Source of the DNA: a bacterium
GTDB taxonomy: Bacteria > UBP6 > UBA1177
NCBI GenBank assembly: GCA_017645765.1
Contig: JAGCNV010000019.1
Location: forward strand, 1 to 64,000
Length of the DNA stretch: 64,000 nucleotides
Reading direction: 5' to 3'
Shown: positions 7,191 through 61,420 of the stretch, piece by piece
How positions within the stretch are numbered: position 1 is the stretch's first letter
Layout of the letters: each line of letters opens with the position of its first letter
Translations under genes and position numbers: made by a program
Notes under the pieces: generated by a model
Seen by the model: the letters and a program-made list of their open reading frames with translations, nothing else
Databases searched by the model: none
Told to the model about the DNA's origin: nothing

Positions 7191-7286
7191 GCCAATCTCC
7201 TCCGAAATGCTAAAAAACTCAACAAACCTGCATATATTATCACTAATGAATCATATTAAAAGGAAAATGTGAGCTATGCCCAAAAT

Positions 7287-7326
7287 TTGACAATTTGCCT
7301 TTAATTCGTAATATTTCCGGTTTTTT
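7287..7326 (+). promoter_or_regulatory. Promoter of trkA-trkH with initial T tract
   Basis: TTGACA (7287-7292), a 16-bp spacer and TAATAT (7309-7314) are followed by TTCCGG and then T6 at 7321-7326, where transcription should begin. The ATG of trkA is at 7346, behind TTGGAG. One of about ten sites in the window sharing the -10/GC-discriminator/T-run layout. Confidence 0.65.
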
Positions 7327-7345
7327 AAATGTTCTTGGAGTTTTA

Positions 7346-8707: not shown

Positions 8708-10155
8708 ATTTTAGTACAATACTCAAACCACTGATTATAATACTGTTTTTCGTTGCGCTCTGCATGTTTTTCCCTATTTTGGTTGCGCTGTATTATGACG
8801 AACCTGCCGCTTTGAAATCATTTTTCAGCGTCATGGTTTCGGTTGCAACCGTATGCGCCGTTATTTTTTATTTTTTAAAAAATCTTCCGATATACAGAAT
8901 CGCAGTCAGGGAAAGTTTTGTCCTTGTCGCGCTCTGCTGGGTGTCGATTTCTTTCGTTTCGGCGCTTCCTTTCTATATTTCAGGGGCGATTCCCAGCTTT
9001 TCCGAGGCTTTTTTCGAGACGGTTTCCGGTTTTTCGACAACCGGAGCTACGATTCTGACTAATATCGAGGCGCTGCCGAAGTCGATGCTCTTCTGGAGGA
9101 GTCTCACTCACTGGCTCGGCGGCATGGGAATCATCGTTCTTGCAGTTGCAGTCCTTCCTCTGCTCGGCGTCGGAGGTCTTCAGCTTTTAAAAGCGGAAGC
9201 GCCCGGTCCTACGGTTGATAAGATTTCACCCAGAATAAGCGAAACGGCGAAAACACTCTGGGGAATCTATATAGGACTGACGGTTGTCGAAGCGATGCTT
9301 CTCAATTTTGCAGGAATGTCTTATTTCGATGCTTTCAACCATGCTTTTGCGACAATTGCGACAGGCGGATTTTCCCCGAAAAACGCTTCGGTGGGCGCAT
9401 ACAACTCCCCGTTCATTGAGTGGATCGTCATAGTTTTTATGATCCTTGCCGGCATGAGTTTCACCCTGCACTACAAAATTATTACGGGAAGGGCGCGTCA
9501 GATTTTCAAAAGCACGGAACTCAGGGTTTATCTTGCGGTCATCGTGACCGGGACGATAATTGTGGCGCACAGTCTCCTGTATCACAAACTATACTCCTTT
9601 CACGGTGCAGTCAGACAGGCAATGTTTCAGGTCGTCTCGATCCTTACGACAACAGGATTTGCAACTGCGGACTATAAACAGTGGCCGCCGTTTGCACAGT
9701 ATATCATTTTTCTTTTAATGTTTTCGGGTGCTTGTAGCGGATCTACCAGCGGCGGTGTGAAACTTATCCGAATAATAACATTGATGAAACTCGCAATAAA
9801 TGAACTGAAATATCTTGTCCATCCGAAAGCTATCATGACTATTTTCATCGACGGCAATGTCGTCAAAAAGGACATGATCTACTCGATTTCGGCATTTGTT
9901 TTCCTTTACGCCGTCTGCGTTCTTACCACCGCATGTCTCTGCGCAGCTTCGGGAGTCGGGATCCTGACCTCTTTTACGGCGGCTCTTTCGACTGTCGGAA
10001 ATATCGGTCCCGGATTCGGCAGGATCGGTCCTGTTGAAAACTATCACTTCTTCAAAGACTGGGTAAAGTGGGTTTTTTCTGTCGGGATGATAATCGGCAG
10101 ACTTGAAGTCTTCACCGTCATGGTGATTTTCACAAGAGCTTTCTGGAAAAAGTAA
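8704..10155 (+). CDS. trkH: Trk potassium channel subunit TrkH
   Basis: The 483-residue membrane protein has four repeated pore regions: FSTTGATIL, ATGGFSPKN, TTTGFATADY and TVGNIGPGFG. Each keeps the glycine of the K+ selectivity filter. About ten membrane helices are predicted, the usual size for TrkH/KtrB. With TrkA it forms a K+ uptake system. It overlaps trkA by 4 bp and is the last gene of that operon; a hairpin region follows before a convergent gene. Confidence 0.92.
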   Translation: MNFSTILKPLIIILFFVALCMFFPILVALYYDEPAALKSFFSVMVSVATVCAVIFYFLKNLPIYRIAVRESFVLVALCWVSISFVSALPFYISGAIPSFSEAFFETVSGFSTTGATILTNIEALPKSMLFWRSLTHWLGGMGIIVLAVAVLPLLGVGGLQLLKAEAPGPTVDKISPRISETAKTLWGIYIGLTVVEAMLLNFAGMSYFDAFNHAFATIATGGFSPKNASVGAYNSPFIEWIVIVFMILAGMSFTLHYKIITGRARQIFKSTELRVYLAVIVTGTIIVAHSLLYHKLYSFHGAVRQAMFQVVSILTTTGFATADYKQWPPFAQYIIFLLMFSGACSGSTSGGVKLIRIITLMKLAINELKYLVHPKAIMTIFIDGNVVKKDMIYSISAFVFLYAVCVLTTACLCAASGVGILTSFTAALSTVGNIGPGFGRIGPVENYHFFKDWVKWVFSVGMIIGRLEVFTVMVIFTRAFWKK

Positions 10156-45700: not shown

Positions 45701-47155
45701 ATGGGTGAAAATATAAGAAATAAAGCTTTTTCCAACATGCTCTGGCGTTTCATGGAACGTACCGGTGCGCAGGCTGTCGGATTCGTTGTACAGATAATCC
45801 TTGCAAGGCTTATTGCACCGGAAGCGTTCGGTATAATTGCAATGGTCACTGTTTTTATCGCGGTTCTGCAGGTATTTGTTGACAGCGGCATGGGAAACGC
45901 GCTGATTCAGAAGAAGAATGCCGATGACCTCGATTTTTCCAGTGTTTTCTATTTCAACATGGCTATGTGTATATTTCTTTACATAGTTATGTTTATTGCA
46001 GCGCCGTTTATAGCAGATTTTTACAATATGCCCGATCTGACTCCCGTTGTCAGAGTTCTTAGCCTGATGCTTATTATTTCCGGTGTAAGAAACATCCAGC
46101 AGGCTTATGTGTCGCGTCACCTAATGTTCAAGCGTTTCTTTTATGCAACATTGGGCGGCACAATCATGGCCGCTGTTGTCGGTATCGGAATGGCATACAA
46201 AGGTTACGGTGTATGGGCGGTCGTAGTGCAGCAGTTGTTCCGTGCAGCACTGGCGGCTGTTATTCTGTGGGTGACTGTCAAATGGCGTCCCAGACTTATG
46301 TTTTCTTTCGAAAGGCTGAAAGGACTTTTTTCGTACGGATGGAAACTGCTGGCTTCGTCTTTGATCAGTACGCTGTATGGTGAAATTCGTCCGCTAATTA
46401 TCGGAAAAGTTTATCTGCCGGAGGAACTGGCCTTTTATAACAGGGCGGAATCTCTCCCGCTTTTTGTTGTTAAAAATATAAATTCCTCCATTGACAGTGT
46501 TCTGTTGCCTACGATGTCTGCTGAGCAGGATGACAGGAATCGTGTGCGTGCTATGACAAGACGTGCAATAAAAACAAGTACATATCTTATGATGCCTATA
46601 ATGGTGGGGCTGGCGGTATGTGCCGAGCCGTTAGTCAGACTTATCCTTACCGAGAAATGGATGCCGTGTGTGCCGTTTTTAAGGGTTTTCTGTTTTGTTT
46701 ACGCTTTTCTGCCTATTCATACGGCAAATCTTAACGCCATCAAGGCTCTGGGAAGAAGTGATCTTTTTTTAAAGCTTGAAATTTTAAAGAAAACTGTCGG
46801 CTTTACTGTTATGCTTGCTACAATATTCATCAGCATAGAGGTCATGGTTTACAGTTATCTGGTGACAACCGTCATTTCAATGTGCATAAACGCATATCCG
46901 AATAAAAAGTTGCTGGATTATTCAATAAAAGATCAGATTTTTGATATGCTGCCTACAATAGCTGTCGCATGTGCGACGGCTGTTCCGTGCGGTCTTCTGA
47001 TTTTGTTCGGGCTGAACGATGTTCTGACTCTGATCATACAGATTCTGACAGGTGCTTTTTGTTACATCGGTTTGTCTAAACTGTTCAAACTGGAGGCTAT
47101 GACTTATCTGACCGATATGTTGAAGGGTTTACTATCGAAATTTATGCCAAAATAG
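45701..47155 (+). CDS. Wzx-like polysaccharide flippase
   Basis: The 484-residue protein has 12-14 predicted membrane helices and belongs to the MviN/MATE-like polysaccharide exporters. It shows MLWRFMERTGAQAVGFVVQI near the start and IAPEAFGIIAMVTVF, typical of the WzxC/TuaB subgroup. It should flip the undecaprenyl-linked repeat unit to the periplasm. ATG 45701 has only a weak RBS. Confidence 0.87.
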   Translation: MGENIRNKAFSNMLWRFMERTGAQAVGFVVQIILARLIAPEAFGIIAMVTVFIAVLQVFVDSGMGNALIQKKNADDLDFSSVFYFNMAMCIFLYIVMFIAAPFIADFYNMPDLTPVVRVLSLMLIISGVRNIQQAYVSRHLMFKRFFYATLGGTIMAAVVGIGMAYKGYGVWAVVVQQLFRAALAAVILWVTVKWRPRLMFSFERLKGLFSYGWKLLASSLISTLYGEIRPLIIGKVYLPEELAFYNRAESLPLFVVKNINSSIDSVLLPTMSAEQDDRNRVRAMTRRAIKTSTYLMMPIMVGLAVCAEPLVRLILTEKWMPCVPFLRVFCFVYAFLPIHTANLNAIKALGRSDLFLKLEILKKTVGFTVMLATIFISIEVMVYSYLVTTVISMCINAYPNKKLLDYSIKDQIFDMLPTIAVACATAVPCGLLILFGLNDVLTLIIQILTGAFCYIGLSKLFKLEAMTYLTDMLKGLLSKFMPK

Positions 47156-47164
47156 GAGGATAGC

Positions 47165-48268
47165 ATGGGTTTGTTCAAAAAGATAATGTTTATTTTCAAG
47201 CGGCATTATTTGAAGAAAAAAGGGTATAGTGATTATTATATTATGCATTACAATGAAGAACTCGAAAAAGGATACAGAGACAAGTCTTTTTCTTTGAAAG
47301 ACAGGAAATGGGCATATAAAAGAGGTTTCTGGCCTTTCAGAATTCAGCAATACGGCTTGACTGAAGAAAATTATAAGGGGATTTTCAGCGACAGGGATTA
47401 TTTTTATCTTTATCCGATCAATAACCGCTACAGCCGCTGGATCGATGACAAACTGACTATGAAATATGTCTTCGCTCCATTTGACCGGTTTATGCCGAGA
47501 TATTATTTTCACATTATGAAAGACCGCGATATCATGAAACTTATGGACTGCCCGAAAGAGTTAAAGCCTGATATTGAAAGCATAATTTTGCTTTTAGAAA
47601 ATAAAGGTCTGCTTGCCGCGAAAATGGCATCAGGAACTTACGGGATCGGTTTCTATAAACTTGAATACAAGGACGGATTGTATCTGGTGAATAAAAAGAG
47701 CTATACCAGAGATGAGTTTGGGAAATTCCTACTTTCACTTGACAATTATATTATTACCGAATTTGTCGAAATGCATCCTGACTTGAAAAAGATAAATCCT
47801 GAATCTGTCAACACTATCCGTGTTACTGTGATAAACGAACATGGAAATGACACGATTATCCCTTTTGCATTTATGAGAATAGGAACGAAAAGATCGGGCG
47901 TTGTCGATAATGTCGCAAAAGGCGGGATGGTCTGCAAGATAGATGTTAAAACCGGTAGGTTTTACGACGGTCAGGTTCTTAAAAATCACGTTTATGAGAA
48001 TGTTGAATATCATCCTGATACCCACGCAAGGCTTGAAGGTATTGTTCCGAACTGGGAATTAGTGAAAAAGACTATCCTTGAAATGTCGGAATACTGTCCT
48101 CAGCTGAAGTGGCTTGGATATGATATAGCAATTACGGCCGACGGTTTCAGCATAATCGAGATAAATTCCCACCACGGTCTGCACAAAGCCCATGAATATC
48201 CGCCGGAAGTTAGCAATTTCCTGTTTTCAGAGCTTGAGAAAAAAAAGAAAAAATACGGATTGAAATAG
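47165..48268 (+). CDS. Sugar-transfer-associated ATP-grasp protein
   Basis: The 367-residue protein has a basic N-terminus and an ATP-grasp core. YIITEFVEMHPDLKKINPES and SVNTIRVTVINE lie near the middle, and LGYDIAITADGFSIIEINSH near 325-345 carries the metal-binding E-x-N. This fits the ATPgrasp_ST family found in polysaccharide loci, thought to join an amino acid or other acid to a sugar amine. GGAGG precedes ATG. Confidence 0.8.
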   Translation: MGLFKKIMFIFKRHYLKKKGYSDYYIMHYNEELEKGYRDKSFSLKDRKWAYKRGFWPFRIQQYGLTEENYKGIFSDRDYFYLYPINNRYSRWIDDKLTMKYVFAPFDRFMPRYYFHIMKDRDIMKLMDCPKELKPDIESIILLLENKGLLAAKMASGTYGIGFYKLEYKDGLYLVNKKSYTRDEFGKFLLSLDNYIITEFVEMHPDLKKINPESVNTIRVTVINEHGNDTIIPFAFMRIGTKRSGVVDNVAKGGMVCKIDVKTGRFYDGQVLKNHVYENVEYHPDTHARLEGIVPNWELVKKTILEMSEYCPQLKWLGYDIAITADGFSIIEINSHHGLHKAHEYPPEVSNFLFSELEKKKKKYGLK

Positions 48269-48323
48269 GTCTTGTAAATTATGAATAAGGTTGTTTTTAT
48301 TAATAAACTTTTTGGAGTGAAAT

Positions 48324-49655
48324 ATGATAACAATTGAAAAACCATTTATCGTAGAAGAAGGGGATTACACCAGTTTAAAGGCCGAAGTTAAAATATCCGA
48401 CGATACAGTCCAGGCATATAAGGGGCTAAAACAAACACTTCCAAAGACTCATTGGAGAACAACTGAAGATTATCCTCCTAAAAGTTGGGAAAATGACAAT
48501 GCCTTTTTATATTTTTCAGTTCCTAAAGAATATGGAAAATATTTTTGCGAAGACAGATCGGACGCATTTGTCGTTGCCATGCTGTGGTATGCATTTATGA
48601 CAGGATCGGATATTCAATTCAAAGCACCTATATCTGAAAAAATGTTTTTCGGCATAACACAACTGCTGACCCCGGCTCTTTGCAAAAATTATAAAAAGAT
48701 TCGCTTGTCAGGGCCTGTGACTAATTCTAAAATACAGTCATGCAATGCCGTAGGCACAGGAATGAGCTGCGGCGTAGATTCATTGTATTCGTTAAAAAAA
48801 TACACCAATCCCAGTGTTCCGGAATCTTACAGACTGACACATTTAGCTTATTTTAATATGGGGGCCATTTTTCATCCGAACACAGCAGTCAATAAGCATT
48901 ATGCGATAGATGAATTTTATAAAGAAACCGATCGTATGTCTGTGGAAAAATTGGAAAATGCACGTCAGGTTGCAGTACTCAGCAATTTGTCTCTGCTGTA
49001 TGTGTATTCAAATGTAGACGAGGATTTTTACAGAGGAGCTTATGGATATAACGGAACTTACAGAAATTGCGCAATGGCGCTTTCCTTACAGAAATTATTC
49101 GGGAAATATTACGGCTCTTCCGCAGGCTGGCCTGAGTTTTTTGATTTAAGTCTTTCTGAGGGCGGTCAACATTATGAAAGCCTTTTGTATGATGTATGTT
49201 CAACAGAGTCTCTGCAATTCATTATTTCAGACTATGATACACGGCTTGAAAAAACAGAGGCTCTGGCAGATTATGAAATTGCCCATAAATATCTGGATGT
49301 TTGTTTCAATTTCAACAATTGCGGCACATGCTCGAAGTGTTACAGAACTCTTATAACACTGGATATTTTGGGTAAAGTTGATCTTTTCAACAAGGTCTTT
49401 GATGTGGAGAAGTATAAGAAAAACAGAGATTTGGCTTTTGCCTGGCTGATAGAAACCAAAAACGGTGACGCGAAAGACGACAACGTGGTTTTTGCGAAAG
49501 ATATTTATGAATTTGCAAAGCAGCGGAATGTTGCTATTCCTGCAAAATCTTATTGGTTGTATAAAAAGAAAATGGCAAGAAACGGTTATTTAACGTTGAA
49601 AAAAAGAATAAAAAAATTTGTAAAGAAAATCTTGCGTGGCAATAAAATCAACTAG
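48324..49655 (+). CDS. PP-loop ATP-pyrophosphatase-like protein with Cys cluster
   Basis: The 443-residue protein has GTGMSCGVDSLYSL near residues 148-161, a SGGxDS-type pyrophosphate-binding loop. Near 333-345 it has NNCGTCSKCYRTLITLDILG, a cysteine cluster like the zinc site of QueC and other PP-loop amide- or thio-transferases. The first 140 residues match no family I recognise. Base composition is visibly more AT-rich than its neighbours. It may adenylate a carboxylate for amide or thioamide formation on a glycan precursor. Confidence 0.6.
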   Translation: MITIEKPFIVEEGDYTSLKAEVKISDDTVQAYKGLKQTLPKTHWRTTEDYPPKSWENDNAFLYFSVPKEYGKYFCEDRSDAFVVAMLWYAFMTGSDIQFKAPISEKMFFGITQLLTPALCKNYKKIRLSGPVTNSKIQSCNAVGTGMSCGVDSLYSLKKYTNPSVPESYRLTHLAYFNMGAIFHPNTAVNKHYAIDEFYKETDRMSVEKLENARQVAVLSNLSLLYVYSNVDEDFYRGAYGYNGTYRNCAMALSLQKLFGKYYGSSAGWPEFFDLSLSEGGQHYESLLYDVCSTESLQFIISDYDTRLEKTEALADYEIAHKYLDVCFNFNNCGTCSKCYRTLITLDILGKVDLFNKVFDVEKYKKNRDLAFAWLIETKNGDAKDDNVVFAKDIYEFAKQRNVAIPAKSYWLYKKKMARNGYLTLKKRIKKFVKKILRGNKIN

Positions 49656-49677
49656 CCGGTTATCAGGAAGGTTTATT

Positions 49678-50757
49678 ATGAAAATTTCCGTTTTAGGTGC
49701 AGGCAATGCAGGTTGTGCGACCGCAGCCGATTTAACCCTTAAAGGGCACGAAGTAACTTTGATAAAAACATCCCATGCACTGCATGACGACAACTTTGAA
49801 TATCTGCTTGCAAACAACGGGGCGATGACTTTGGATGAGTTCGGGGATGTCAGAACTGCTCTCATTCACAAAGTAACAAGAGATGTAAGTGAAATCTCCA
49901 GTAGTAAAATCGTTATAATGTTTATCCAGACAAAATTTCACGAGCAGCTGATAGAGAGAATCGAGCCGTATCTGTGCGACGGACAGATTTTGTTGATAAT
50001 TCCGGGTTATCTCTCTACAGCCTATGTGCTTAAACACTGCAAAAAAGATATTGTCGTTGCTGAAGGAGAAAGTTCTTTCGTCGACGGCAGAATTTTGGAA
50101 TTGGGTCGTTTCAGAGTCGGATTCCGTAATGTCCGAAATCCTGTCGGTGTTTATCCGAAAGCGAAAAAAAATGAGACTTTCAAGGTGTTGGAGCAGCTGA
50201 ATGAGCGCATTGTTCCTTTAAATTCCGTTGTTGAAGCGGCTCTGCACAATCCGAATGTAATAGTTCACACCGTCGGAACAGTTATGAGCATTCCGTGGAT
50301 TGAGAAAACCCAAAAGGAGTTTTGTCTTTATCACGATGCCTATGCAAGAACCAATGTTGCAACCTGGCGTGTTCTTGAAGCTCTTGATTCTGAGAAAATG
50401 GATATCATAGAAAAATTGGGTTTCGAGCGTCTGAGTTATGTCGAGGCATGCAAATACCGTAATTCTCTGGACAGTACGATTGACGGCAAGGAAGTGTTTC
50501 TGGAATATGCCGAAATGCCGATACGTTCCAAAGGTCCTGCAAAAGTCGAGTCTAGATACATTACAGAGGATATACCACAAGGACTGGTAATGCTTGAAGC
50601 TTTGGGCAAGGCACTCGGTGTTGCGACTCCAATCGCGACCTCTTTGATTGAAATCGCTTCGGCTGCTTTGGGACGCGATCTTCGCAAAGAGGGAAGAACT
50701 CCGCATACTCTTGGAGAGGAAAATATTAAAAAAATCATAAATGATTGTAAAAACTGA
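49678..50757 (+). CDS. Octopine/nopaline (opine) dehydrogenase-family protein
   Basis: The 359-residue protein has an N-terminal NAD(P) fold (ISVLGAGNAGCATAADLTLK) and an opine-dehydrogenase C-terminal domain with HNPNVIVHTVGTVMSIPWIE. The family reductively couples an amino acid's amine to a 2-oxo acid. ATG 49678 is preferred, with AGGAAGG upstream; the upstream in-frame start would overlap the previous gene. The next gene, 10 bp on, encodes an aminotransferase. Confidence 0.83.
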   Translation: MKISVLGAGNAGCATAADLTLKGHEVTLIKTSHALHDDNFEYLLANNGAMTLDEFGDVRTALIHKVTRDVSEISSSKIVIMFIQTKFHEQLIERIEPYLCDGQILLIIPGYLSTAYVLKHCKKDIVVAEGESSFVDGRILELGRFRVGFRNVRNPVGVYPKAKKNETFKVLEQLNERIVPLNSVVEAALHNPNVIVHTVGTVMSIPWIEKTQKEFCLYHDAYARTNVATWRVLEALDSEKMDIIEKLGFERLSYVEACKYRNSLDSTIDGKEVFLEYAEMPIRSKGPAKVESRYITEDIPQGLVMLEALGKALGVATPIATSLIEIASAALGRDLRKEGRTPHTLGEENIKKIINDCKN

Positions 50758-50767
50758 GGTCGAAAAA

Positions 50768-51997
50768 ATGAACAAATTGGCAAATTATCCTGCAATGCAG
50801 TTGAGCGACAAAGTGAATGCTATTCCCGAAGCTCTATCTGTCTATATGAATAATATTGTCTATGCGATGAAAAGACGCGGCGACAAAATCAAGGTTCTTT
50901 CCTTGGGAGAAGCTTTTTTTGATATTCCGATGTTTCCGCTTGACGATATTGATTTCAAAAAAGGGTATCACTATTCGGAAAGCAGGGGATTGCCGGAACT
51001 CAGAAAGGTTGTCTCCGGATATTACTCGGAAAAATATAACGCACCGGTAAATCCTGACGATGAAATCATTATTTCGGCAGGTTCAAAACCGCTTATCTAT
51101 ATGGCTTTTCAGGCTGTTTTGAATCCGGGTGACGAGGTTCTTATTCCCGAACCTGCATGGTTGAGTTATCCTGAAGAAATCAAGCTTGCAAACGGTGTTC
51201 CGAAGTTTATACCTTACGATTGTCCGGTTGAAGATTTCGGAAAATATTTTACCGAAAAAACGAAAATGGTGATTATATGCAACCCGAACAATCCTGCCGG
51301 CAGAATTTATACGAAAGCAGAGATGGAAAAACTTTACTCAATCTGCCGCCCGAAAGGCATTTATATTCTTGCCGACGAGGCATACAGCGATTTTGTTATA
51401 GACGGAAAGTTCACTTCTATGGTTAATGTGGTGCCTGATAAAGACGGAATTATTGTTGTAAATTCTCTTTCCAAAAACCTCGGCATTTCAGGCTGGAGAC
51501 TCGGTTATGCGATTGCAGCACCGAAAGTTATCTATAACATTCTTAAACTAAACCAGCATCTGATAACTTGCCCGGCGACACTGCTTGCGATGTATGTTGC
51601 GCACTATTTCAAAGATATTATCTCGATAACTCTGCCGCAGGCGGAAGCTGTTGTCAGAAAACGTGCGGAAGTTGTAGATTTTATGCAAAAAATCGGTTTG
51701 GAACCGTTTGAAGGATCGGCCACTTTCTATATTTTCGTAAATATCGGAAACTATAAAAAGTCATCGATGGATTTAGGGCTTTATCTTCTGATGAAATACG
51801 GAATATCGGTTGTGCCCGGAACGGCTTACGGTCAAAGCACCGAGCGTTTTATCCGTATAGGCGTAGGTGCGGAAAGCGTGGAAACAATAAAAGAATGTCT
51901 GGAAATTATAAAGCGTGTAATTGAAAATAATGAATATGACGATTCTTTTGTGGAATCAGAGCTGAAATCACTCGGGTTCAACCGTTTTGTTCGATAG
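50768..51997 (+). CDS. Class I/II PLP aminotransferase
   Basis: The 409-residue aspartate-aminotransferase-fold protein has YHYSESRGLPELRKVVSGYY, CNPNNPAGRIYTKAEM, LADEAYSDFV and SLSKNLGISGWRLGY with the PLP-binding Lys. It starts 10 bp after the opine dehydrogenase gene, with GAGG overlapping the stop of that gene. It probably makes the amino acid or keto acid used by its neighbours. Confidence 0.88.
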   Translation: MNKLANYPAMQLSDKVNAIPEALSVYMNNIVYAMKRRGDKIKVLSLGEAFFDIPMFPLDDIDFKKGYHYSESRGLPELRKVVSGYYSEKYNAPVNPDDEIIISAGSKPLIYMAFQAVLNPGDEVLIPEPAWLSYPEEIKLANGVPKFIPYDCPVEDFGKYFTEKTKMVIICNPNNPAGRIYTKAEMEKLYSICRPKGIYILADEAYSDFVIDGKFTSMVNVVPDKDGIIVVNSLSKNLGISGWRLGYAIAAPKVIYNILKLNQHLITCPATLLAMYVAHYFKDIISITLPQAEAVVRKRAEVVDFMQKIGLEPFEGSATFYIFVNIGNYKKSSMDLGLYLLMKYGISVVPGTAYGQSTERFIRIGVGAESVETIKECLEIIKRVIENNEYDDSFVESELKSLGFNRFVR

Positions 51998-52011
51998 AAA
52001 TGAGGTCTGCA

Positions 52012-53217
52012 ATGTCAAGAGTTCTTGTTCTTCCAGGAAGTAAGTGGCAGCTGCCGCTGGTAAAAAAAATAAAAGAAATGGGACATTGGCTTTGTGTCGT
52101 AAGTCCCGAACAGAATCCGCCATGCGCCGAAGTTGCTGACGAATTTTTCAGAAGTGATATATTTGCTGTTGACAACATAGAAAAGTACGCTAAAGAACAC
52201 GCCGTTGATGCAATTGTTTCTGATGAATGCGATATAGCGATGCCTGTTGTGGCAGAGCTGGGAAACCGCTTGAAACTCAGAGCGATGTCAAAAGAAACGG
52301 CCGCACTTTTCACAGACAAGTTCCTTATGCGCGAGTTCTGCATCAAGCACGGTTTGAAATCACCGGAATACAGATTGTGTAAAACGGCTGATGAAGCAGT
52401 CGAATTTCTTAAAAATTTGGGTAAGCCGATAATAATCAAACCCCTTGACAGCAACGCAAGCCACGGTGTTTTCAAGGCTGAAACCGAAGCGGAAGTCAGA
52501 GAACATTTCGAGGAATCCTTGTCTTTTTCCAGAATTGAGCACGCTGTTCTTGCTGAAAGATATATTGTAGGAACAGAATTCACGGTTGACGGCATCAAAA
52601 CTCCGAACGCGCATTATACACTGGCAATCAGCGAGAAAAAACACTTCAAGCACAATGTCAATATCGCTAACGAGCTTTATTTCACGCACGCCAATCCTCG
52701 TTTCGATTACGAAAAACTGAAGGCAGGCAATGATGCTTTTGTTATGGCATCACCGCTGGAATACGGTTTCACTCATGCGGAATACAAATGTGAGGACGGT
52801 GAGTTTTATCTGATTGAGATCGGCGCCCGCGGCGGCGGCAATATGATTTCATCGGTGATAACGCAGTTCATGTCTGGTTATGACACTTACAAATATCTCA
52901 TTGAATGTGCTACCGGTAATGTCCAGAACAAGGATTTCTCCATCAAGGATGAATATAAGGAAAGAGCTTCGATTCTGAAGTTCTTTAAAACCCCTTCAGG
53001 CGGCGGAAAAGTAAAAAATATTCTTGGTCTGGACTATCTTGAGAATGAGCCTGACATAAAGGAATATAAACTTAACTTCGGTATCTGTGACACAATAGAA
53101 GATGCTAAAAACGATTCGGCGAGAATAGGCTTTTTTATTGCCTGTTCTGATTCTGTTGACAAACTCGATAAAGTCGTCAGCCAAGTTGAGGAAAAATTTA
53201 AAATAATATATTTTTAG
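52012..53217 (+). CDS. ATP-grasp carboxylate-amine ligase
   Basis: The 401-residue protein has a preATP-grasp start (SRVLVLPGSKWQLPLVKKI), KPIIIKPLDSNASHGVF (nucleotide-binding Lys), HAEYKCEDGEFYLIEIGARG with a metal-ligand E-I-G-A-R, and a RAGNYA-like C-terminal part. It resembles carbamoyl-phosphate-synthase-type and BacD-type ligases that join amino acids to amines. ATG 52012 fits GAGG 6 nt upstream better than ATG 52000. Confidence 0.82.
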   Translation: MSRVLVLPGSKWQLPLVKKIKEMGHWLCVVSPEQNPPCAEVADEFFRSDIFAVDNIEKYAKEHAVDAIVSDECDIAMPVVAELGNRLKLRAMSKETAALFTDKFLMREFCIKHGLKSPEYRLCKTADEAVEFLKNLGKPIIIKPLDSNASHGVFKAETEAEVREHFEESLSFSRIEHAVLAERYIVGTEFTVDGIKTPNAHYTLAISEKKHFKHNVNIANELYFTHANPRFDYEKLKAGNDAFVMASPLEYGFTHAEYKCEDGEFYLIEIGARGGGNMISSVITQFMSGYDTYKYLIECATGNVQNKDFSIKDEYKERASILKFFKTPSGGGKVKNILGLDYLENEPDIKEYKLNFGICDTIEDAKNDSARIGFFIACSDSVDKLDKVVSQVEEKFKIIYF

Positions 53218-53248: not shown

Positions 53249-54067
53249 ATGGTCCGAGTAGGATATTTGGGGTATTCGGAGAGAATGCTTTTGGATTTAG
53301 TAAATAATAAAGACTTCGAATTGTGTTTTGCTATCGGAAAGAGCGGAAGAATTTCCTATGATTACAGGACTATTGTTGCTTCTCGCGGAATCAACTACAT
53401 TGAAATAAACAATAAAAAAGAACTGCTTCAACAGACGGATCTTTTTAAAACTGTTGATGTGATTCTGATGTACAAATTTGAATTTATTCTCCCTGCATCC
53501 ATTGTTGACAACTACCGTGTTATAAATTTCCATGGCGGCGATTTGCATACAAACCGCGGAGCACATGCGGTTGTGTGGACAATTCTTCTTCAAGAACCAT
53601 CCACCTGCCTGTCATGCTATCAGCTTACCGGCGGTATTGATGAAGGATTGTTGATAAATCAATACAATGTTAATGTTTTCGAGACTGATACGCCGCATGA
53701 ACTGAACTGCAGATTAATGGACGGAATTCCCTCTTTGCTGAAAGATGTGTTTGCGTTTTTAAGCGGTGACAAAAAGGCTGTAGCAATTACCGGCGGTACG
53801 TACAGAAAGAAAATCACTGAAGCGGATTATACTATCGATTTGGAAAATGACGGTATCAGAACGATAAGAGGCAAAATCAATTCACAAAAACATTTCAACG
53901 GTGCCGTTATCAGATATCTCGGGAAGGAATACAGGGCTAAAGAGTATTATGCCTGCAAAGAACCTGCCATGAATAATGAAAAAGAAATATCGTTCAGCAA
54001 CAACGAGTTTGTCGTTTTTCGTGATAGTCTGGCACTTCACATTTTGGTTTCAGAAAGTGTATTATGA
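53249..54067 (+). CDS. Sugar N-formyltransferase (VioF/ArnA-N type)
   Basis: The 272-residue formyl-transferase-fold protein has INFHGGDLHTNRGAHAV, with the catalytic Asn and His, and GIDEGLLINQ with the Asp. These are the N-H-D residues of N10-formyl-tetrahydrofolate-dependent enzymes. A C-terminal small domain follows. With VioA, RmlA and RmlB encoded at 57181-60178, it probably makes dTDP-4-formamido-4,6-dideoxyglucose. A truncated copy of the vioA start lies 24 bp downstream. Confidence 0.82.
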   Translation: MVRVGYLGYSERMLLDLVNNKDFELCFAIGKSGRISYDYRTIVASRGINYIEINNKKELLQQTDLFKTVDVILMYKFEFILPASIVDNYRVINFHGGDLHTNRGAHAVVWTILLQEPSTCLSCYQLTGGIDEGLLINQYNVNVFETDTPHELNCRLMDGIPSLLKDVFAFLSGDKKAVAITGGTYRKKITEADYTIDLENDGIRTIRGKINSQKHFNGAVIRYLGKEYRAKEYYACKEPAMNNEKEISFSNNEFVVFRDSLALHILVSESVL

Positions 54068-54140: not shown

Positions 54141-54181
54141 TTCTAAAAGGAGATGAACAATGGAAACTCCGGCACAATTAA
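54092..54181 (+). pseudogene. Truncated 5' fragment of the vioA-like aminotransferase gene
   Basis: The frame begins [16 protein letters not shown], exactly the first 16 residues of the intact aminotransferase at 57181. It then diverges into an unrelated 13-residue tail and stops at TAA 54179-54181. It has an 'aggag' RBS, so a 29-residue peptide may be made. It overlaps the acyltransferase start at 54160. It marks the left edge of the segment between the direct repeats. Confidence 0.85.
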
Positions 54182-54930
54182 ACGATGCTACTGGGGTTCA
54201 AAACCCTAAACGACGCGACTCGAATCTTGAATTAATGAGAATAATCGCGATGCTTCTGATAGTTGCTCACCACTATGTTGTCAATTCAGGTCTAACTCTT
54301 CCGGAAGGACCGATATTCGCCGATCCGATGTCAAAACGTTCGCTTTTTCTGCTTGTTTTCGGTGCATGGGGAAAAATCGGGATAAACTGCTTTATGATGA
54401 TAACCGGATATTTCATGTGCAAATCGAATATCACGGTGAAAAAATTCGCGAAGCTGTTTTTGGAAGTTATGTTCTACCGGCTGGTAATATATTCGGTCTA
54501 CCGGATTAGCGGTTATAAGCCGTTTACTTGGATTTCTTTCGCCCAAACATTGATTCCCATAACCAATATCAATCATAATTTTACATCGTGCTTCATTTTA
54601 TTTTTTCTTTTTATTCCGTTTCTCAATCAACTCGTCCGGAATATGAATGAAAAACAGCATTTGGCTTTACTTTCGCTTTGCTTTTTTATGTATATCGTTC
54701 TGGGAACATTTCATCAAGTTACAATGAACTATGTTTCGTGGTTCATGGTGCTTTATTTCATATCTTCATACATCAGGTTTTATCCGAAGAAATGGTTCTC
54801 AAGTACAAAAATTACAGGAATTATGCTGTTGCTTACAGTTGTATTATCGATATGCAGTATTATTGGAAGTGAATGGATCGTAAAAAAAAACAGGGAAAAG
54901 TACTCCTTTCTTTTTTGTTACAGATTCTAA
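54160..54930 (+). CDS. Acyltransferase-3 family protein, N-terminal part (frameshifted)
   Basis: The 256-residue product begins with a cytoplasmic tail and NLELMRIIAMLLIVAHHYVV, the acyltransferase-3 (OafA/ExoZ-type) signature with the catalytic-region His. About seven helices follow (ITGYFMCKSNITVKKFAKLF and so on). It stops at 54930, soon after a run of nine A (54882-54890). Removing one A would continue into the downstream frame, where the remaining helices are encoded. As written the protein is truncated. GGAG precedes the ATG. A sugar O-acetyl decoration role is likely for the full-length form. Confidence 0.8.
   Translation: METPAQLNDATGVQNPKRRDSNLELMRIIAMLLIVAHHYVVNSGLTLPEGPIFADPMSKRSLFLLVFGAWGKIGINCFMMITGYFMCKSNITVKKFAKLFLEVMFYRLVIYSVYRISGYKPFTWISFAQTLIPITNINHNFTSCFILFFLFIPFLNQLVRNMNEKQHLALLSLCFFMYIVLGTFHQVTMNYVSWFMVLYFISSYIRFYPKKWFSSTKITGIMLLLTVVLSICSIIGSEWIVKKNREKYSFLFCYRF
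54882..54890 (+). other. A9 tract at the acyltransferase frameshift
   Basis: Nine consecutive A residues after TCGT. With eight, the reading would run GTA AAA AAA ACA GGG and join both halves. Candidates are slipped-strand phase variation, transcriptional slippage, a fixed mutation or a sequencing error. Confidence 0.8.
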
Positions 54931-55324
54931 TACATTTTTAGCAGCTGCAGTCGGCGTTTCCGCATTTTTGTTCTTCAAAAATATCAGGATTCCGCATAGC
55001 AGGATCATCAACACGGTTGCGGCTTCGACATTCGGAGTGCTTCTTATCCATGCCGGCGGCGATACAATGCGGCAATGGCTTTGGAAAGACACTGTCGACT
55101 GTGTGGGACATTACGGCTACAGATTTATGCCGCTTTATGCAATAGGTTGCGTTCTCGCGATATTTACGGTCTGCACTTTAATCGACATTCTGAGGATAAA
55201 CTGTCTGGAAAAACCCTTCTTCAAATTCTGGGACAAGCGGTGGGGTGGGATTGTCTTACAAAAATCGACTATAATTGATATGTCGGCAATAGATCTGAGT
55301 TTTTTTGTGTCTCATCAGATATAA
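54884..55324 (+). pseudogene. Acyltransferase-3 C-terminal remnant in the shifted frame
   Basis: This frame continues the membrane protein with FLAAAVGVSAFLFFKNIRIP, VAASTFGVLLIHAGGDTMRQ and a last helix YAIGCVLAIFTVCTLIDILR, the usual end of acyltransferase-3 proteins. It has no start codon or RBS of its own; the only in-frame initiator is a TTG at 54968. Its last 56 bp overlap the 3' end of darG on the opposite strand, and its final residues may not be native. Confidence 0.75.
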
Positions 55325-56321
55325 AATAGCCAAACAAATTTTGAATAACAATATCTGATTTTATCAATCTGGTTAATGAGTTTTTTATCTCTTCTTCAGA
55401 GAATTGTTTAGGATCTTCCTTGGGCCAGTCTTTGAGGAAGTAATGAACGATCTCATCTTCTTTAAATTGGGGATGACCTTTAACAATCGCAACAACTGTT
55501 GCTACTATTTCAAGTTCGTGATTGTCGCTGATGGAGTTTACGAAATTGGTCGCCTGTTTTATGACCGGGGTATATTTTTCGATGGTTTCTTTTACGCTGT
55601 CGCTTATAATATTGTTGTAAAGAATTTTCTGGGCCGTATCGGTATTTACATTGTAAATCTCTTGAAAATCCTTGATGTGCTGAGATAAAACCTCTATGTT
55701 GTGATCATAAGGACCATGTTTATATTCTATAAATTTAAAATAGTTGCTGCCGCTGAATATGTTTAAGAAAAAAGCAGCTTTTTGCAATCTTATTTTGCCG
55801 ATTGGCTTAAGAGCGATTTTTAATCGCATTAAGATTAAATGAGAGGCGGACATTTTGTGGAGAACTGGTTTCGGAGTGAAAACCGTCGATGGTTCATAGA
55901 TTGTTATATCAACATCCAAATTACTGAACTTTTCGATAATTTTTTGCTTAACAATGTTCCAATTCAGTCCACCGTTTCCGCAGCCTAGTGGCGGAATAGC
56001 CAGTGATTTAATGTTTCTTTCAATAATTCCTGCTTTTAATGCTTCCAATCCTGAGTCGATATAAGAATATTCTGATTTTTCACGCCATCTGTTTTTTGTT
56101 GGAAAATTGGCGATGATTTTTCCGTCTTCTTCAAAAAACAAGATTTTTCCGATTGTGAAATCACCACTTTTACATGCTTTTACGTATGCTTTATTATTTT
56201 CCGGGAATCTTTCTTTAAATTGGTAGGCAATACCTTTCCCCATAAATCCTTCACAATTTACGGTGTTTATAAGGCATTGCGATGCTGAATCTAAAATGTT
56301 TCCGGTTTTATATGTTATCAT
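55269..56321 (-). CDS. darG: DarG-like macrodomain antitoxin
   Basis: The 350-residue protein has an N-terminal macrodomain (about 1-150) with GNILDSASQCLINTVNCEGF, MGKGIAYQFKERFP and IPPLGCGNGGLNW, the ADP-ribose loops of DarG. The C-terminal 200 residues begin HLILMRLKIALKPIGKIRLQ, like the toxin-binding half of DarG. DarG removes ADP-ribose from thymidine bases and binds DarT. It follows darT by 4 bp on the same strand, as in known darTG operons, and the length matches. Confidence 0.85.
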   Translation of the reverse strand: MITYKTGNILDSASQCLINTVNCEGFMGKGIAYQFKERFPENNKAYVKACKSGDFTIGKILFFEEDGKIIANFPTKNRWREKSEYSYIDSGLEALKAGIIERNIKSLAIPPLGCGNGGLNWNIVKQKIIEKFSNLDVDITIYEPSTVFTPKPVLHKMSASHLILMRLKIALKPIGKIRLQKAAFFLNIFSGSNYFKFIEYKHGPYDHNIEVLSQHIKDFQEIYNVNTDTAQKILYNNIISDSVKETIEKYTPVIKQATNFVNSISDNHELEIVATVVAIVKGHPQFKEDEIVHYFLKDWPKEDPKQFSEEEIKNSLTRLIKSDIVIQNLFGYFISDETQKNSDLLPTYQL

Positions 56322-56325
56322 AGTC

Positions 56326-56928
56326 TTACGCCTTGCTGAATGTCGTGTTTACACAAATATCAAATTTATAGTTACCTAAAATATCTGTTGCTAAATTCTC
56401 GACATAATCTTGTGTGCCATCATTTGCTACATAAATCATAAAAAAATCGTCTGGTGTTACAGGTGATGTTGCGAGGCATTCCGCCATGCATGCATTTTTG
56501 CTTATGAGGTCATTGTAGTTTCTTTCTTCTGCTTTTTCCCAATTAATAGCTTTGAAGCCTTCATTATAGCTCATTACTTCTGCTACTGGGTTCTGCGACA
56601 AAGGGTGAGCTGTGCATATTTGAAAATTCTGTTGTTTCGCAAAATCTCTAAGAATTGTAATGCTGCAAAATGATTCGTTCGGATGAGATTTAAAAACAAT
56701 TCCTGTAAAAGCAGTCGGTTCAAAAAAATGAAAAGGAACAAATTGAAATATCCCAAGTTCTTTTCTCTTTTTGATGATGTCTTGATCTGCTATATCAACA
56801 AGATTGTTTCCAAGTCCTTTATCTTCTACGTCTTTTCTTGAAAGAAGACCCTTTCTTAAGATGCTTTCCAAATTTTTGACAGCTGTAACATGATATAATA
56901 ATTTTCCATCCTGAATTCTTTTTGCCAT
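56326..56928 (-). CDS. darT: DarT-like DNA ADP-ribosyltransferase toxin
   Basis: The 200-residue DUF4433-type protein has LLYHVTAVKNLESILRKGLL at the N-terminus and DIADQDIIKKRKELG with Arg55 in the NAD-loop position. VPFHFFEPTAF follows, and ACMAECLATSPVTPDDFF holds Glu150 at the place of the catalytic Glu. DarT ADP-ribosylates thymidine in single-stranded DNA and acts in anti-phage defence. GGAG precedes the ATG. Key residues are present, so it is probably active. The pair's base composition is more AT-rich than adjacent sugar genes, suggesting transfer. Confidence 0.83.
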   Translation of the reverse strand: MAKRIQDGKLLYHVTAVKNLESILRKGLLSRKDVEDKGLGNNLVDIADQDIIKKRKELGIFQFVPFHFFEPTAFTGIVFKSHPNESFCSITILRDFAKQQNFQICTAHPLSQNPVAEVMSYNEGFKAINWEKAEERNYNDLISKNACMAECLATSPVTPDDFFMIYVANDGTQDYVENLATDILGNYKFDICVNTTFSKA

Positions 56929-57148: not shown

Positions 57149-57167
57149 TATAATGCGGCGGTTTTTT
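57149..57167 (+). promoter_or_regulatory. Promoter of vioA-rmlA-rmlB-ugd, T-tract type
   Basis: TATAAT (57149-57154), GCGGCGG (57155-57161), T6 (57162-57167), then G. It lies 14 nt before the vioA ATG, inside the segment bounded by the direct repeats. The 252-bp gap 56929-57180 otherwise shows only AT-rich sequence. Confidence 0.55.
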
Positions 57168-57178
57168 GAAGGAGAGCA

Positions 57179-57229
57179 CCATGACAATAAACGTTACCCG
57201 TTCCTCGATGCCAAATTTTGAGGAGTATT
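57179..57229 (+). repeat. 51-bp direct repeat, right copy
   Basis: Identical to 54090-54140. Here it forms the intact start of the vioA-like gene. Identity ends abruptly at base 57229, within codon 17. Confidence 0.95.
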
Positions 57230-58287
57230 GCGAGGAGATCAAAGAGCTTTGGGAGAGCCGCTGGCTCACGAATTCGGGGGCGAAGCACCAGAAATTTCAG
57301 GCGGAGCTTGAAAAGATGCTGGGTGTGCCGCATGTCGCGCTTTTTACGAACGGGCATCTGGCGCTTGAAAACATAATCGCAGCTTTTGAGTTCCCGAAAG
57401 GTTCGGAAGTTATTACGACTCCTTTCACTTTCGCTTCGACGACTAATGCGATTGCGAGAAACGGTCTCACACCTGTTTTCTGCGACGTAAATCCTGAAAA
57501 TTACACGATGGATGCTGATAAAATCGATGCTCTGATAACAGAAAAAACTGTAGCGATTGTGCCAGTTCATGTTTACGGGAATATGTGCGATGTTGAAAAA
57601 ATCGCCGATATTGCGAAAAAGCACAATCTGAAGGTGATTTATGATGCGGCTCATGCTTTCGCGGTGAAATACAAAGGTGTTTCATCCGCTTGTTTCGGTG
57701 ATGCTTCGATGTTCAGCTTTCATGCGACCAAGGTCTTCAACACGATCGAGGGCGGCGCGGTCTGTTTTTCGGAAGATCCACTTGTTGACAAACTCAACAG
57801 TATGAAAAATTTCGGCATAACGAGCCCTGAAAGTGTAGGATTTGTCGGCGGAAACGCGAAAATGAGCGAATTCCAGGCGGCGATGGGAATTTGCAATCTG
57901 CGCCATCTTGATGGTGAAATCGCAAAACGAAAAGCCGTTGTCGAGCGTTACTGTGCTCACCTTGACGGAGTGAAAGGGATAAAACTCTGCAAACCGGATA
58001 AAAATGTTACTCCGAATTACGCATATTTCCCCGTTGTTTTTGACGGTTTCACGGTTTCAAGGGACGAAATTTTCGCAAAACTGGCTGAAAACGGAATTGT
58101 CGCGAGAAAATATTTCTATCCGCTCACAAACACATTCGACTGTTACAAAAATCTTCCGACTTCAGGCGCAGAAAAAACGCCGGTTGCAGCATATTTTGCA
58201 GACAGGGTACTGACTCTGCCGCTTTACGCCGACCTCGCTCTGGAAGATGTCGACAGAATCTGCGGAATAATTTTGGAAAGGAGATAA
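57181..58287 (+). CDS. DegT/DnrJ/EryC1/StrS aminotransferase, VioA-like
   Basis: The 368-residue sugar aminotransferase has [43 protein letters not shown]-like [14 protein letters not shown] and [15 protein letters not shown] with the PLP Lys. The N-terminus [13 protein letters not shown] and the overall pattern resemble VioA, which converts dTDP-4-keto-6-deoxyglucose to dTDP-4-amino-4,6-dideoxyglucose. The substrate would come from RmlA and RmlB encoded next. Its first 49 bases are duplicated at 54092. Confidence 0.88.
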
Positions 58288-58289
58288 AA

Positions 58290-59159
58290 ATGAAAGGAAT
58301 CATTCTTGCCGGCGGCAAAGGAACAAGGCTTTATCCGATGACAAAGGCTGTTTCGAAGCAGCTTCTGCCGATTTACGACAAGCCGCTGATCTACTATCCG
58401 CTTTCGATCCTCATGCTTGCAGGAATCCGCGAAGTGCTGATCATTTCGACGCCTGAGGATACTCCGCTTTACGAAAGGCTCTTCGGGACAGGCAAAAAGA
58501 TCGGAATGAAGTTCGCCTACAAAGTGCAGGATACTCCGCGCGGACTTGCCGACGCCTTTATTCTGGGAGAGGATTTTATCGGAGATGACAGCGTATGCCT
58601 GATTCTGGGCGACAATGTCTTTTACGGCCAGGATATGACAAAAACGCTCAGAAAAGCGATGGAAAATAAGGTCGGAGCCACGATCTTCGGCTATCCGGTG
58701 AAGGATGCACGCTCGTTCGGCGTGGTCGAGTTCGACAAAAAACACAAAGTTGTTTCAATTGAGGAAAAACCGGAACACCCGAAGAGCAACTACGCCGTTC
58801 CGGGGCTTTATTTCTATGACAACCGTGTTGTCGAGATCGCGAAAAACGTGAAACCTTCGGCCCGCGGCGAGATCGAAATTACCGCTGTAAACAACGCATA
58901 TCTTGAAATGGGTGAACTCAATGTCACCCTGCTCGGGCGCGGCATGGCGTGGCTCGATACCGGAACGCCCGCAAATATGCTGAAAGCGGCGGAATTTGTC
59001 GAAGCTGTGCAGGATAGACAGGGATTTTATGTTTCCTGCATCGAAGAGATCGCATGGCGGCGCGGATTCATAACGACCGAGCAGCTTAAAGAAATAGGTT
59101 GTGAACTCAAAATGACCGACTACGGCCAGTATCTGCTTTCAATCGCGGGGGAAAAATAA
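58290..59159 (+). CDS. rmlA: Glucose-1-phosphate thymidylyltransferase
   Basis: The 289-residue protein has [20 protein letters not shown], then [33 protein letters not shown] and [20 protein letters not shown], all diagnostic of RmlA. It makes dTDP-glucose from dTTP and glucose-1-phosphate. It starts 2 bp after vioA and shares TAATG with rmlB. No rmlC or rmlD follows, so the product is probably not rhamnose. Confidence 0.95.
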
Positions 59160-60178
59160 TGAACATCATCGTTACAGGCGGCGCGGGATTTATCGGCTCG
59201 AACTTCATTTTCCACATGCTTGAGGCGCATCCCGATTACAGGATCATCTGCCTCGACAAACTGACTTACGCGGGAAATCTGAGCACTTTGAAAAGTGTCA
59301 TGGATAAGCTGAATTTCCGCTTTGTGAAACTCGATATCTGCGACAGATCTGGGGTTTACAAACTTTTTGAAGAGGAAAAACCTGACATCATCGTCAATTT
59401 CGCTGCTGAAAGCCATGTTGACAGAAGTATCGAAGACCCATCAGTTTTCCTGCAGACAAACATTATCGGAACATCAGTTCTCATGGATGCGTGCAGGAAA
59501 TACGGAATAACAAGATATCATCAGGTTTCGACTGACGAAGTTTACGGCGACCTTCCCCTTGACAGGCCAGACCTTTTCTTCACCGAGGAGACTCCGATCC
59601 ACACAAGCAGCCCGTATTCAAGTTCAAAAGCGGGGGCAGACCTTCTGGTCATGGCGTATCACCGCACTTTCGGGCTTCCGGCGACGATCTCAAGATGTTC
59701 GAACAACTACGGCCCTTACCATTTCCCCGAAAAGCTTATCCCTCTGATGATTGCCAACTGCCTGAACGACAAGCCGCTTCCGGTTTACGGCGAAGGGCTC
59801 AACGTCCGCGACTGGCTCTATGTCGAAGACCACTGCAAGGCGATCGATCTTGTCATTCACAAAGGGCGTGTTGGCGAGGTCTACAACATCGGCGGCCACA
59901 ACGAAATGAGAAATATCGACATCGTGAAACTCATCTGCAAGGAACTCGGCAAACCCGAAAGCCTGATAACACATGTCAAAGACAGACTGGGCCACGATAT
60001 GCGCTACGCGATCGACCCGACGAAGATCCACAACGAACTCGGCTGGCTGCCCGAAACCAAATTCGCAGAAGGTATCAAAAAAACGATAAAATGGTATCTC
60101 GACAACCGCGAATGGTGGGAAGAGATAATAAGCGGCGAATATCAGAACTACTACAAAAAAATGTATGAAGGAAGGTAA
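59159..60178 (+). CDS. rmlB: dTDP-glucose 4,6-dehydratase
   Basis: The 339-residue extended SDR protein has VTGGAGFIGSNF, FAAESHVDRSIEDPSVFLQT, STDEVYGDLP with the catalytic Asp/Glu, and SPYSSSKAGADLL (YxxxK). It makes dTDP-4-keto-6-deoxyglucose, the VioA substrate. It overlaps rmlA by 1 bp and abuts ugd with no gap. Confidence 0.95.
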   Translation: MNIIVTGGAGFIGSNFIFHMLEAHPDYRIICLDKLTYAGNLSTLKSVMDKLNFRFVKLDICDRSGVYKLFEEEKPDIIVNFAAESHVDRSIEDPSVFLQTNIIGTSVLMDACRKYGITRYHQVSTDEVYGDLPLDRPDLFFTEETPIHTSSPYSSSKAGADLLVMAYHRTFGLPATISRCSNNYGPYHFPEKLIPLMIANCLNDKPLPVYGEGLNVRDWLYVEDHCKAIDLVIHKGRVGEVYNIGGHNEMRNIDIVKLICKELGKPESLITHVKDRLGHDMRYAIDPTKIHNELGWLPETKFAEGIKKTIKWYLDNREWWEEIISGEYQNYYKKMYEGR

Positions 60179-61420
60179 ATGCGCAAGTTCGAAGATTTGA
60201 AAATTGCGGTAGCCGGCACAGGCTACGTCGGTTTATCGCTGGCTGTTCTGCTTTCACAGCATCACGATGTTACGGCGGTGGATATCGTTCCTGAGAAGGT
60301 GAAACTTCTCAATGAAAAAAAGTCGCCGGTTCAGGATGAATACATTGAAAAATATTTGGCGGAAAAAGAGTTGAAACTCACGGCAACGACCGATGGGAAA
60401 AGCGCTTATGCCGATGCTGATATCGTAATAATTGCGGCTCCGACGAACTACGATCCGCAGAAAAATTTCTTTGATACGAGTGCTGTTGAAGCGGTCATCG
60501 ACCTTGTCAGGAGTGTCAATCCTGATGCTTTTATGGTCATCAAATCGACGGTTCCGGTAGGTTTTACAAGGCATATCCGCGAAAAGAAAAACTGTGAGAA
60601 CATACTTTTCAGTCCGGAATTTCTGCGTGAATCGAAGGCACTTTATGACAACCTCTATCCGAGCAGAATAATTGTCGGGTGCGATGAAAAAACGCGTGGA
60701 GTTGCTGAAACTTTTGCAAAACTTCTTCAGGAAGGTGCGGAAAAGAAAGATGTTCCTACGCTTTTTATGGATTTTACCGAGGCCGAGGCGGTCAAACTTT
60801 TTGCAAACACATATCTTGCGCTGCGCGTCAGCTACTTCAACGAACTTGATACTTATGCTGAGATAAAAGGATTGGAGACGGCTAACATAATCAAAGGAGT
60901 ATGCCTTGATCCGAGGATAGGTGACCACTACAACAATCCTTCCTTCGGATACGGCGGCTACTGTCTTCCGAAGGACACAAAACAACTTCTTGCGAACTAT
61001 GCCGATGTTCCTGAAAACCTGATTCAGGCGATAGTTGAGAGCAACCGCACAAGGAAGGATTTTATTGCTGACCGCATTTTGGAACGTGCCGGATATTACA
61101 CCGGAAGCAGCGATTGGGATGTAAAAAAGGAAAAGTCGGTCATAGTCGGTGTGTATCGCCTTACTATGAAAAGCAACAGCGACAATTTCAGAGCTTCGGC
61201 TATTCAGGGAATAATGAAGCGCATAAAAGCAAAAGGTGTTACGCTTGTCATTTATGAGCCGAGTCTTTCTGACGGCACGACTTTCTTCAATTCACTTGTC
61301 GTAAACGATATCGAAAAATTCAAAAAGATGAGCGATGTGATAATCGCGAACCGGTTCGATGCGATTTTGAGTGATGTCAAAGAAAAGGTCTATACGCGCG
61401 ATTTTTTCAGCAGGGATTAG
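60179..61420 (+). CDS. ugd: UDP-glucose 6-dehydrogenase
   Basis: The 413-residue protein has [45 protein letters not shown] and [15 protein letters not shown] with the catalytic Cys. It follows the short Ugd type, distinct from the TviB-like enzyme at 28145. It oxidises UDP-glucose to UDP-glucuronate. ATG 60179 directly follows the rmlB stop. It is the last gene of the operon. Confidence 0.92.

Follow-up and report, generated by a model that had tools for sequence, protein, structure and literature searches.

The chemistry of O-antigens that carry opines has long been known. The O-antigen of Providencia alcalifaciens O35 carries an alanopine amide on 4-amino-4,6-dideoxyglucose (Qui4N) (PMC10609480), and in Campylobacter jejuni the C-terminal TupA-like ATP-grasp of Cj1438 amidates capsule glucuronate, using serinol or ethanolamine phosphate (PMC11800379). 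Here, we describe a run of five genes at positions 47165–53217 of a 64,000-nt stretch of contig JAGCNV010000019.1 (the window) from an uncultured bacterium, encoding a sugar-transfer-associated ATP-grasp ligase (AG1), a QueC-fold protein (PP), an opine dehydrogenase (ODH), an aminotransferase (AT) and a second ATP-grasp ligase (AG2). On balance, we favor a role of this module in decorating a surface glycan, in which an opine made by ODH would be amide-linked to a sugar by the ligases and flipped by Wzx. The product chemistry is already known and the enzyme set is new; a literature search on opine dehydrogenase, ATP-grasp and O-antigen found no described gene set.

An initial annotation of the window, made from the sequence alone, had likened the run to opine decorations of Providencia and Proteus O-antigens. 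The analogy is apt, and the sharper match is the Qui4N-bound alanopine of P. alcalifaciens O35, given the adjoining 4-amino-sugar genes. The product predicted here, an N-(carboxyethyl)amino acid amide on 4-amino-4,6-dideoxyglucose, resembles that of O35, although the organism differs and O35 is compared by structure, the window by genes alone. With Cj1438 the locus would share ATP-grasp amide formation on a surface polysaccharide, and TupA proteins lie near ODH in three related loci (L008, L052 and the congener L064). However, AG1 belongs to ATPgrasp_ST rather than to TupA, and no opine dehydrogenase has been described for the Cj1438 system. TupA (PF14305) had no match among the window proteins scanned with Pfam and is present in L008 and L064.

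The opine dehydrogenase and its gene run

All five open reading frames (ORFs) of the annotated run were confirmed on the + strand, near head-to-tail (Table 1). The run extends beyond 47165–53217, with the flippase on its 5′ side, the formyltransferase-fold gene (FT) and a split acyltransferase on its 3′ side, and later a dTDP-4-amino-sugar block at 57166–60178. The likely C-terminal part of the split PF01757 acyltransferase runs on in another frame after 54930. From ~26.9 kb onward, the window is occupied by a cluster for surface polysaccharide that includes glycosyltransferase, LicD and Wzy-type genes, and two UDP-sugar dehydrogenases are encoded in the window. ATPgrasp_ST and ODH each have a single gene in the genome, the two being 1.4 kb apart. 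The amide ligation and surface-glycan context proposed by the initial annotation are supported, and so, at the level of sequence, is the opine-type chemistry it proposed, by intact catalytic residues in ODH.

Table 1. Features in and around the five-gene run (positions in the window).
Feature	Position	Strand	Evidence
Wzx-type flippase, heads run	45701–47155	+	Polysacc_synt_3, 344 bits
AG1, sugar-transfer-associated ATP-grasp ligase	47165–48268	+	ATPgrasp_ST PF14397, 135.4 bits (cut-off 31.4)
PP, QueC-fold protein (predicted), SCGVDS loop	48324–49655	+	No Pfam/NCBIfam match
ODH, opine dehydrogenase	49678–50757 (revised; ORF from 49636)	+	Octopine_DH PF02317, 129.2 bits (cut-off 30)
AT, class I/II aminotransferase	50741–51997 (possible start 50768)	+	Aminotran_1_2 PF00155, 191 bits
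AG2, ATP-grasp with L-amino-acid-ligase C-terminal domain	52000–53217	+	ATP-grasp_4 and LAL_C2 above cut-off; LAL_C2 32.5 bits (cut-off 29.4)
FT, formyltransferase-fold, predicted N-acyl capping enzyme	53249–54067	+	Formyl_trans_N, 37 bits
Membrane acyltransferase, apparently split	54160–55324	+	PF01757; frame stops at 54930
DarT/DarG toxin-antitoxin pair	55269–56928	-	PADLOC E 7.6e-28 and 4.2e-93; GC 34.5%
DegT-type aminotransferase, best match DesI (dTDP-4-dehydro-6-deoxyglucose 4-aminotransferase)	57166–58287	+	TIGR04427, 275 bits (below 650 cut-off)
RmlA, glucose-1-phosphate thymidylyltransferase	58290–59159	+	TIGR01207, 463 bits (above cut-off)
RmlB-type dTDP-glucose 4,6-dehydratase	59159–60178	+	PF16363, 293 bits
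UDP-sugar dehydrogenase (uronic-acid supply)	60179–61420	+	UDPG_MGDP_dh domains

Because every ODH homolog begins MK(I/V/F), the start is probably ATG at 49678 rather than GTG at 49636. ODH carries the Rossmann motif GAGNAG, and His211, Asp312 and Arg307 (numbered from the GTG), corresponding to the family's catalytic His-Asp pair and its NADH-sensing Arg (PMC2924402, PMC10787698), are present in 17/17 homologs. The closest solved structure is 1bg6 (ArODH), N-(1-D-carboxylethyl)-L-norvaline dehydrogenase, a member of the same family with the His-Asp dyad and with Asn198, whose equivalent ODH retains; identity is low, however, and ArODH Ala111 is replaced by Tyr in the ODH clade, so that the amino-acid pocket would differ from that of ArODH. 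To our knowledge, the ArODH gene lies outside a glycan locus. Aspartate-preferring opine dehydrogenases carry an Arg/Gly pocket pair (PMC10787698), which maps to Tyr125/Asn207 in ODH; since this is not the pair of the acidic-amino-acid enzymes, an acidic amino acid appears less likely as the substrate. Plasmid ODH matches are only 24–29% identical, too distant to inform.

We consider it quite improbable that this ODH-fold enzyme is some other reductase of the ketopantoate-reductase-like superfamily among ordinary glycan genes. An ApbA domain also matches ODH, and a conserved tryptophan reported for opine dehydrogenases (PMC10787698) has no conserved counterpart in our set, in which no column holds tryptophan in 70% of the 17 homologs, the reference tryptophan position being unmapped. 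Against such a reductase stand the His-Asp dyad and Arg retained throughout, the dehydrogenase identity of 1bg6, and the repeated pairing of ODH with amino-acid- and peptide-type ligases.

Pairing of ODH with ATP-grasp ligases in other bacteria

That ODH and a glycan ATP-grasp ligase belong together across several bacterial groups is well supported. In the comparisons, ORFs of the relatives came from a simple script, with a Pfam scan on some only; locus counts are small, and loci from metagenome-assembled genomes may be misassembled. In a survey anchored on PP, the three closest PP homologs outside the genome (51–55% identical) each have an ODH within about two genes, with ODH identities of 35, 64 and 72%; together with the window's PP, all of this closest clade stand beside ODH, whereas more distant PP homologs do not. 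An ODH-anchored survey, independent of PP, yielded nine further loci (L039, L042, L043, L051–L056). ODH and ATPgrasp_ST occur together in L006, L007, L039, L042, L043 and the congener L064. The L042 locus, inside a glycan cluster, carries an ATP-grasp, ATPgrasp_ST, ODH, ATPgrasp_ST and CapA, which is the L007 set minus PP, and the two have the order ligase-ODH-(PP)-ligase-CapA in common. ODH adjoins a flippase in L051 and in L052, where TupA is also found. ATPgrasp_ST lies within 5 kb of ODH in six of eight surveyed ODH loci (random-placement probability ~6e-12, under a crude null that inflates significance, given that glycan genes tend to cluster in any case; nor was the window a random draw); the family is rare, being single-copy in the window's genome and in genome G530. 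In these surveys, chance neighborhood fails as an explanation for ATPgrasp_ST and ODH, and for PP in the closest clade. In L053, positions 7758–8849 encode an ODH homolog, 41% identical to the window ODH, whose surrounding genes appear phage-like on visual inspection.

Two of these loci, L039 and L043, hold a bare ATPgrasp_ST and ODH pair with no recognized glycan genes around it, which argues for direct coupling of the two enzymes. The same two loci would also fit a secreted product, be it an opine small molecule or a metallophore, and opine metallophores are known elsewhere. We regard such a product as highly improbable, given that the window and three congeners place the genes between a flippase and sugar-nucleotide genes and that neither an exporter nor a metallophore synthase partner was seen in the window.

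Four congeneric species (L064–L067) have ODH and ATP-grasp ligases. In three of them (L064, L065 and L066) these genes lie between the same flippase, 71–81% identical to that of the window, and the same dTDP-4-amino-sugar genes (DesI-type gene 85–94% identical; DesI/rmlA/rmlB together 85–97%). The order in L064 is flippase, ATPgrasp_ST (81%), ODH (90%), TupA, another ATP-grasp, GNAT and DesI/rmlA/rmlB (94–97%), with PP absent from the locus; L065 and L066 have, between the flippase and the DesI-type genes, a different ODH (38%) together with two ATP-grasps and two genes that could not be assigned, and L067 has an ATP-grasp, then a distant ODH. A GNAT occupies the place of FT in one congener. 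Within the genus, the genes inside one surface locus are exchanged while the ODH and ATP-grasp theme persists. In the window, the DarTG pair separates the decoration genes from the dTDP-amino-sugar block; none was found at that place in the three congeneric loci.

The run had been annotated as a single five-gene cassette, a claim that the relatives do not bear out. Outside the genus, the window's AT and LAL-type ATP-grasp were not found beside ODH, and the congeners have TupA-type or other ATP-grasps, GNAT or further enzymes in their place. AT is lineage-specific, and both AT and AG2 stand outside the conserved ODH unit, other ligases replacing them in relatives. The closest solved relatives of AT are aspartate/aromatic aminotransferases, and a capsule operon of Enterococcus hirae encodes a relative of AG2 (25%) immediately 3′ of a sugar transferase gene. 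AG1 has five residues invariant in seven homologs (K153, R219, D320, E332 and N334); its predicted structure was poor (pLDDT 60) and was not used. It is possible, if somewhat unlikely, that two independent decorations adjoin here, AG1-PP-ODH giving the opine amide and AT-AG2-FT an N-formylated aminoacyl sugar. No orthologs of AT, AG2 and FT were seen in other ODH loci, and capsule and glycan loci on plasmids contain AG2-like ligases with no ODH, but the run is contiguous on one strand with short gaps, and a single flippase and a single amino-sugar block would serve both. Such a division is compatible with the glycan decoration we favor, merely splitting its module in two.

A predicted QueC fold in glycan loci

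The initial annotation labeled PP a PP-loop protein, which its model supports and the sequence databases do not. PP has no Pfam or NCBIfam match, its family lacking a model in either database, and the loop reads SCGVDS instead of SGGxDS. According to its AlphaFold2 model (pLDDT 90.4), PP has a QueC fold: the top Foldseek matches in the PDB were QatC (E 1.4e-4, probability 1.00, near full length, with a TM of only ~0.4) and Cap9 (probability 0.82), and the best viral matches were phage QueC proteins (E 1.3e-5, probability 1.00). The QueC model PF06508 did not match the window PP and matched 2/21 homologs, with a best E of 0.046. Only 12 residues are invariant across the 21 aligned domains, namely G146, S148–D152 (SCGVD, in 21/21), R307, C327, N332, C333, C336 and C339. 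The four cysteines form a C-x5-C-x2-C-x2-C motif, which aligns, weakly, to the QueC C(x)8CxxCxxC motif in hhalign (P 0.0017, probability 15%). We rejected PP as the genome's preQ0 synthase, a canonical QueC being encoded elsewhere (204.8 bits, cut-off 150.3), and as a defense gene, PADLOC having given no match for it.

PP resembles the anti-phage QueC-family proteins QatC and Cap9 (PMC13279940, PMC13329287) in predicted fold and cysteine cluster, and QatC in its extended N-terminus; Cap9 forms a protein amide by QueC chemistry (PMC13279940). Unlike them, PP has SCGVDS rather than SGGxDS, lacks a PF06508 or PADLOC match, and lies in glycan loci with ligases and no QatB or CD-NTase partner. The WbpG/WbuX-type N-sugar amidotransferases are likewise PP-loop enzymes and serve O-antigen synthesis, but neither of their motifs, CxxC(x)6CxC and SGGxDSxY (PMC13329287), is found in PP, which has SCGVDS and C(x)5CxxCxxC instead and no NCBIfam match. 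A recent PF06508 survey mentions no polysaccharide, ATP-grasp or opine contexts, except for WbpG-type O-antigen amidotransferases with other motifs. PP is predicted to be a carboxylate-adenylating amide ligase. We tentatively propose, at somewhat less than even confidence, that it adds another biochemical role to those of the QueC fold, that of an amide ligase devoted to surface glycans and glycan-linked peptides in bacteria and archaea, which here would ligate or amidate the opine.

A two-sequence PP profile searched against the genomes of 84,980 species recovered 18 loci. These are distributed over Bacteroidota, Bacillota, Alphaproteobacteria and archaea, and many are of rumen or gut origin. 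No homologs were found in viral contigs and phages or among 27 phylum-mate genomes. The PP gene has a low GC content (37.3%; GC3 35.8%), as import could show. Recurring neighbors of the family are ATPgrasp_ST (L006, L007, L009 and L014) and a Mur ligase (L014 and L019), and in L020 there is a CapA (PGA_cap) fusion. The L008 locus contains two PP-type proteins, TupA and CapA; the second and more divergent PP-loop protein (6423–7736; SGGLDA), directly upstream of ODH, matches QatC weakly (E 0.051). In L015 and L019, the PP domain is N-terminal in proteins of ~845 residues, followed in L015 by D-Ala-D-Ala-carboxypeptidase-like and methyltransferase domains; the L019 protein adjoins a Mur ligase/VanY protein and, by eye, apparent 2-aminoethylphosphonate genes. 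In the rumen methanogenic archaea (L013 and L017), PP-type genes occur in tandem, with a Sel1-repeat fusion in L013, and the alphaproteobacterial PPs (L003, L016, L018 and L021) have an N-terminal extension that by eye is like polysaccharide pyruvyltransferase.

Predicted pathway and acceptor sugar

From the observed gene content, intact motifs, PP fold and recurrent linkage (ODH with glycan ATP-grasps, the closest PPs with ODH), we infer opine formation, amide ligation and an acceptor. Judging by its family and catalytic residues, ODH would reductively couple a 2-keto acid, probably pyruvate, with an amino acid to give an N-(1-carboxyalkyl)amino acid. An ATP-grasp ligase, foremost AG1, would then activate an opine carboxylate and form an amide link to the amine of a nucleotide- or lipid-linked sugar. 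The acceptor is most likely a 4-amino-4,6-dideoxyhexose from the adjacent RmlA, RmlB and DesI-type genes, the DesI-type aminotransferase being the likely source of the amino sugar; this guess follows from these genes and from the alanopine-Qui4N already described for P. alcalifaciens O35. In the third and least certain step, PP may adenylate a carboxylate and form a further amide, which might amidate the opine, add a second residue or be the very link to the sugar; one close relative lacks PP and has a TupA-type ATP-grasp. AT may supply, and AG2 add, a further lineage-specific amino acid, FT would cap an amine, and the finished unit would be flipped by the Wzx heading the run.

Several points weigh against this pathway. 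The four ODH loci L053–L056 have no ligase nearby. PP is absent from L064, whose ODH is 90% identical, and so the ODH/AG1 step cannot depend on it. Matches to the DesI and formyltransferase models fall short of the respective cut-offs (E 1.7e-8 for FT against the dTDP-4-amino-4,6-dideoxyglucose formyltransferase model), making the identity of Qui4N a guess, and if FT formylates the sugar N4, that amine is not free. No conserved tryptophan was found, so the ODH substrate could differ. Finally, the TupA-type precedent activates the carboxylate of the sugar, not that of an opine.

The last point leads to the reverse geometry, which we judge unlikely: AG1 and PP would activate a hexuronic acid at its C6 carboxylate, to which an amino acid or opine would be joined through its amine, on the model of Providencia rustigianii O14, whose galacturonate bears carboxyethyl-lysine. 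That structure is known, the TupA-like ATP-grasp Cj1438C is proven on glucuronate (PMC11800379), the window has its two UDP-sugar dehydrogenases, and L064 combines TupA with the absence of PP. Nevertheless, three congeners have 4-amino-sugar genes, not a dehydrogenase, after the ligases, and a simple alanine-type opine offers only a hindered secondary amine.

A portable ODH and ATP-grasp core, swapped within the surface locus of one genus, would allow opine-decorated glycans to be predicted from sequence. The conserved SCGVD loop would likewise be a marker of a PP amide-ligase family, and such a family of ligases in glycan loci would widen the range of the QueC fold, which has so far been linked to queuosine, LarE, amidotransferases and anti-phage protein modification.

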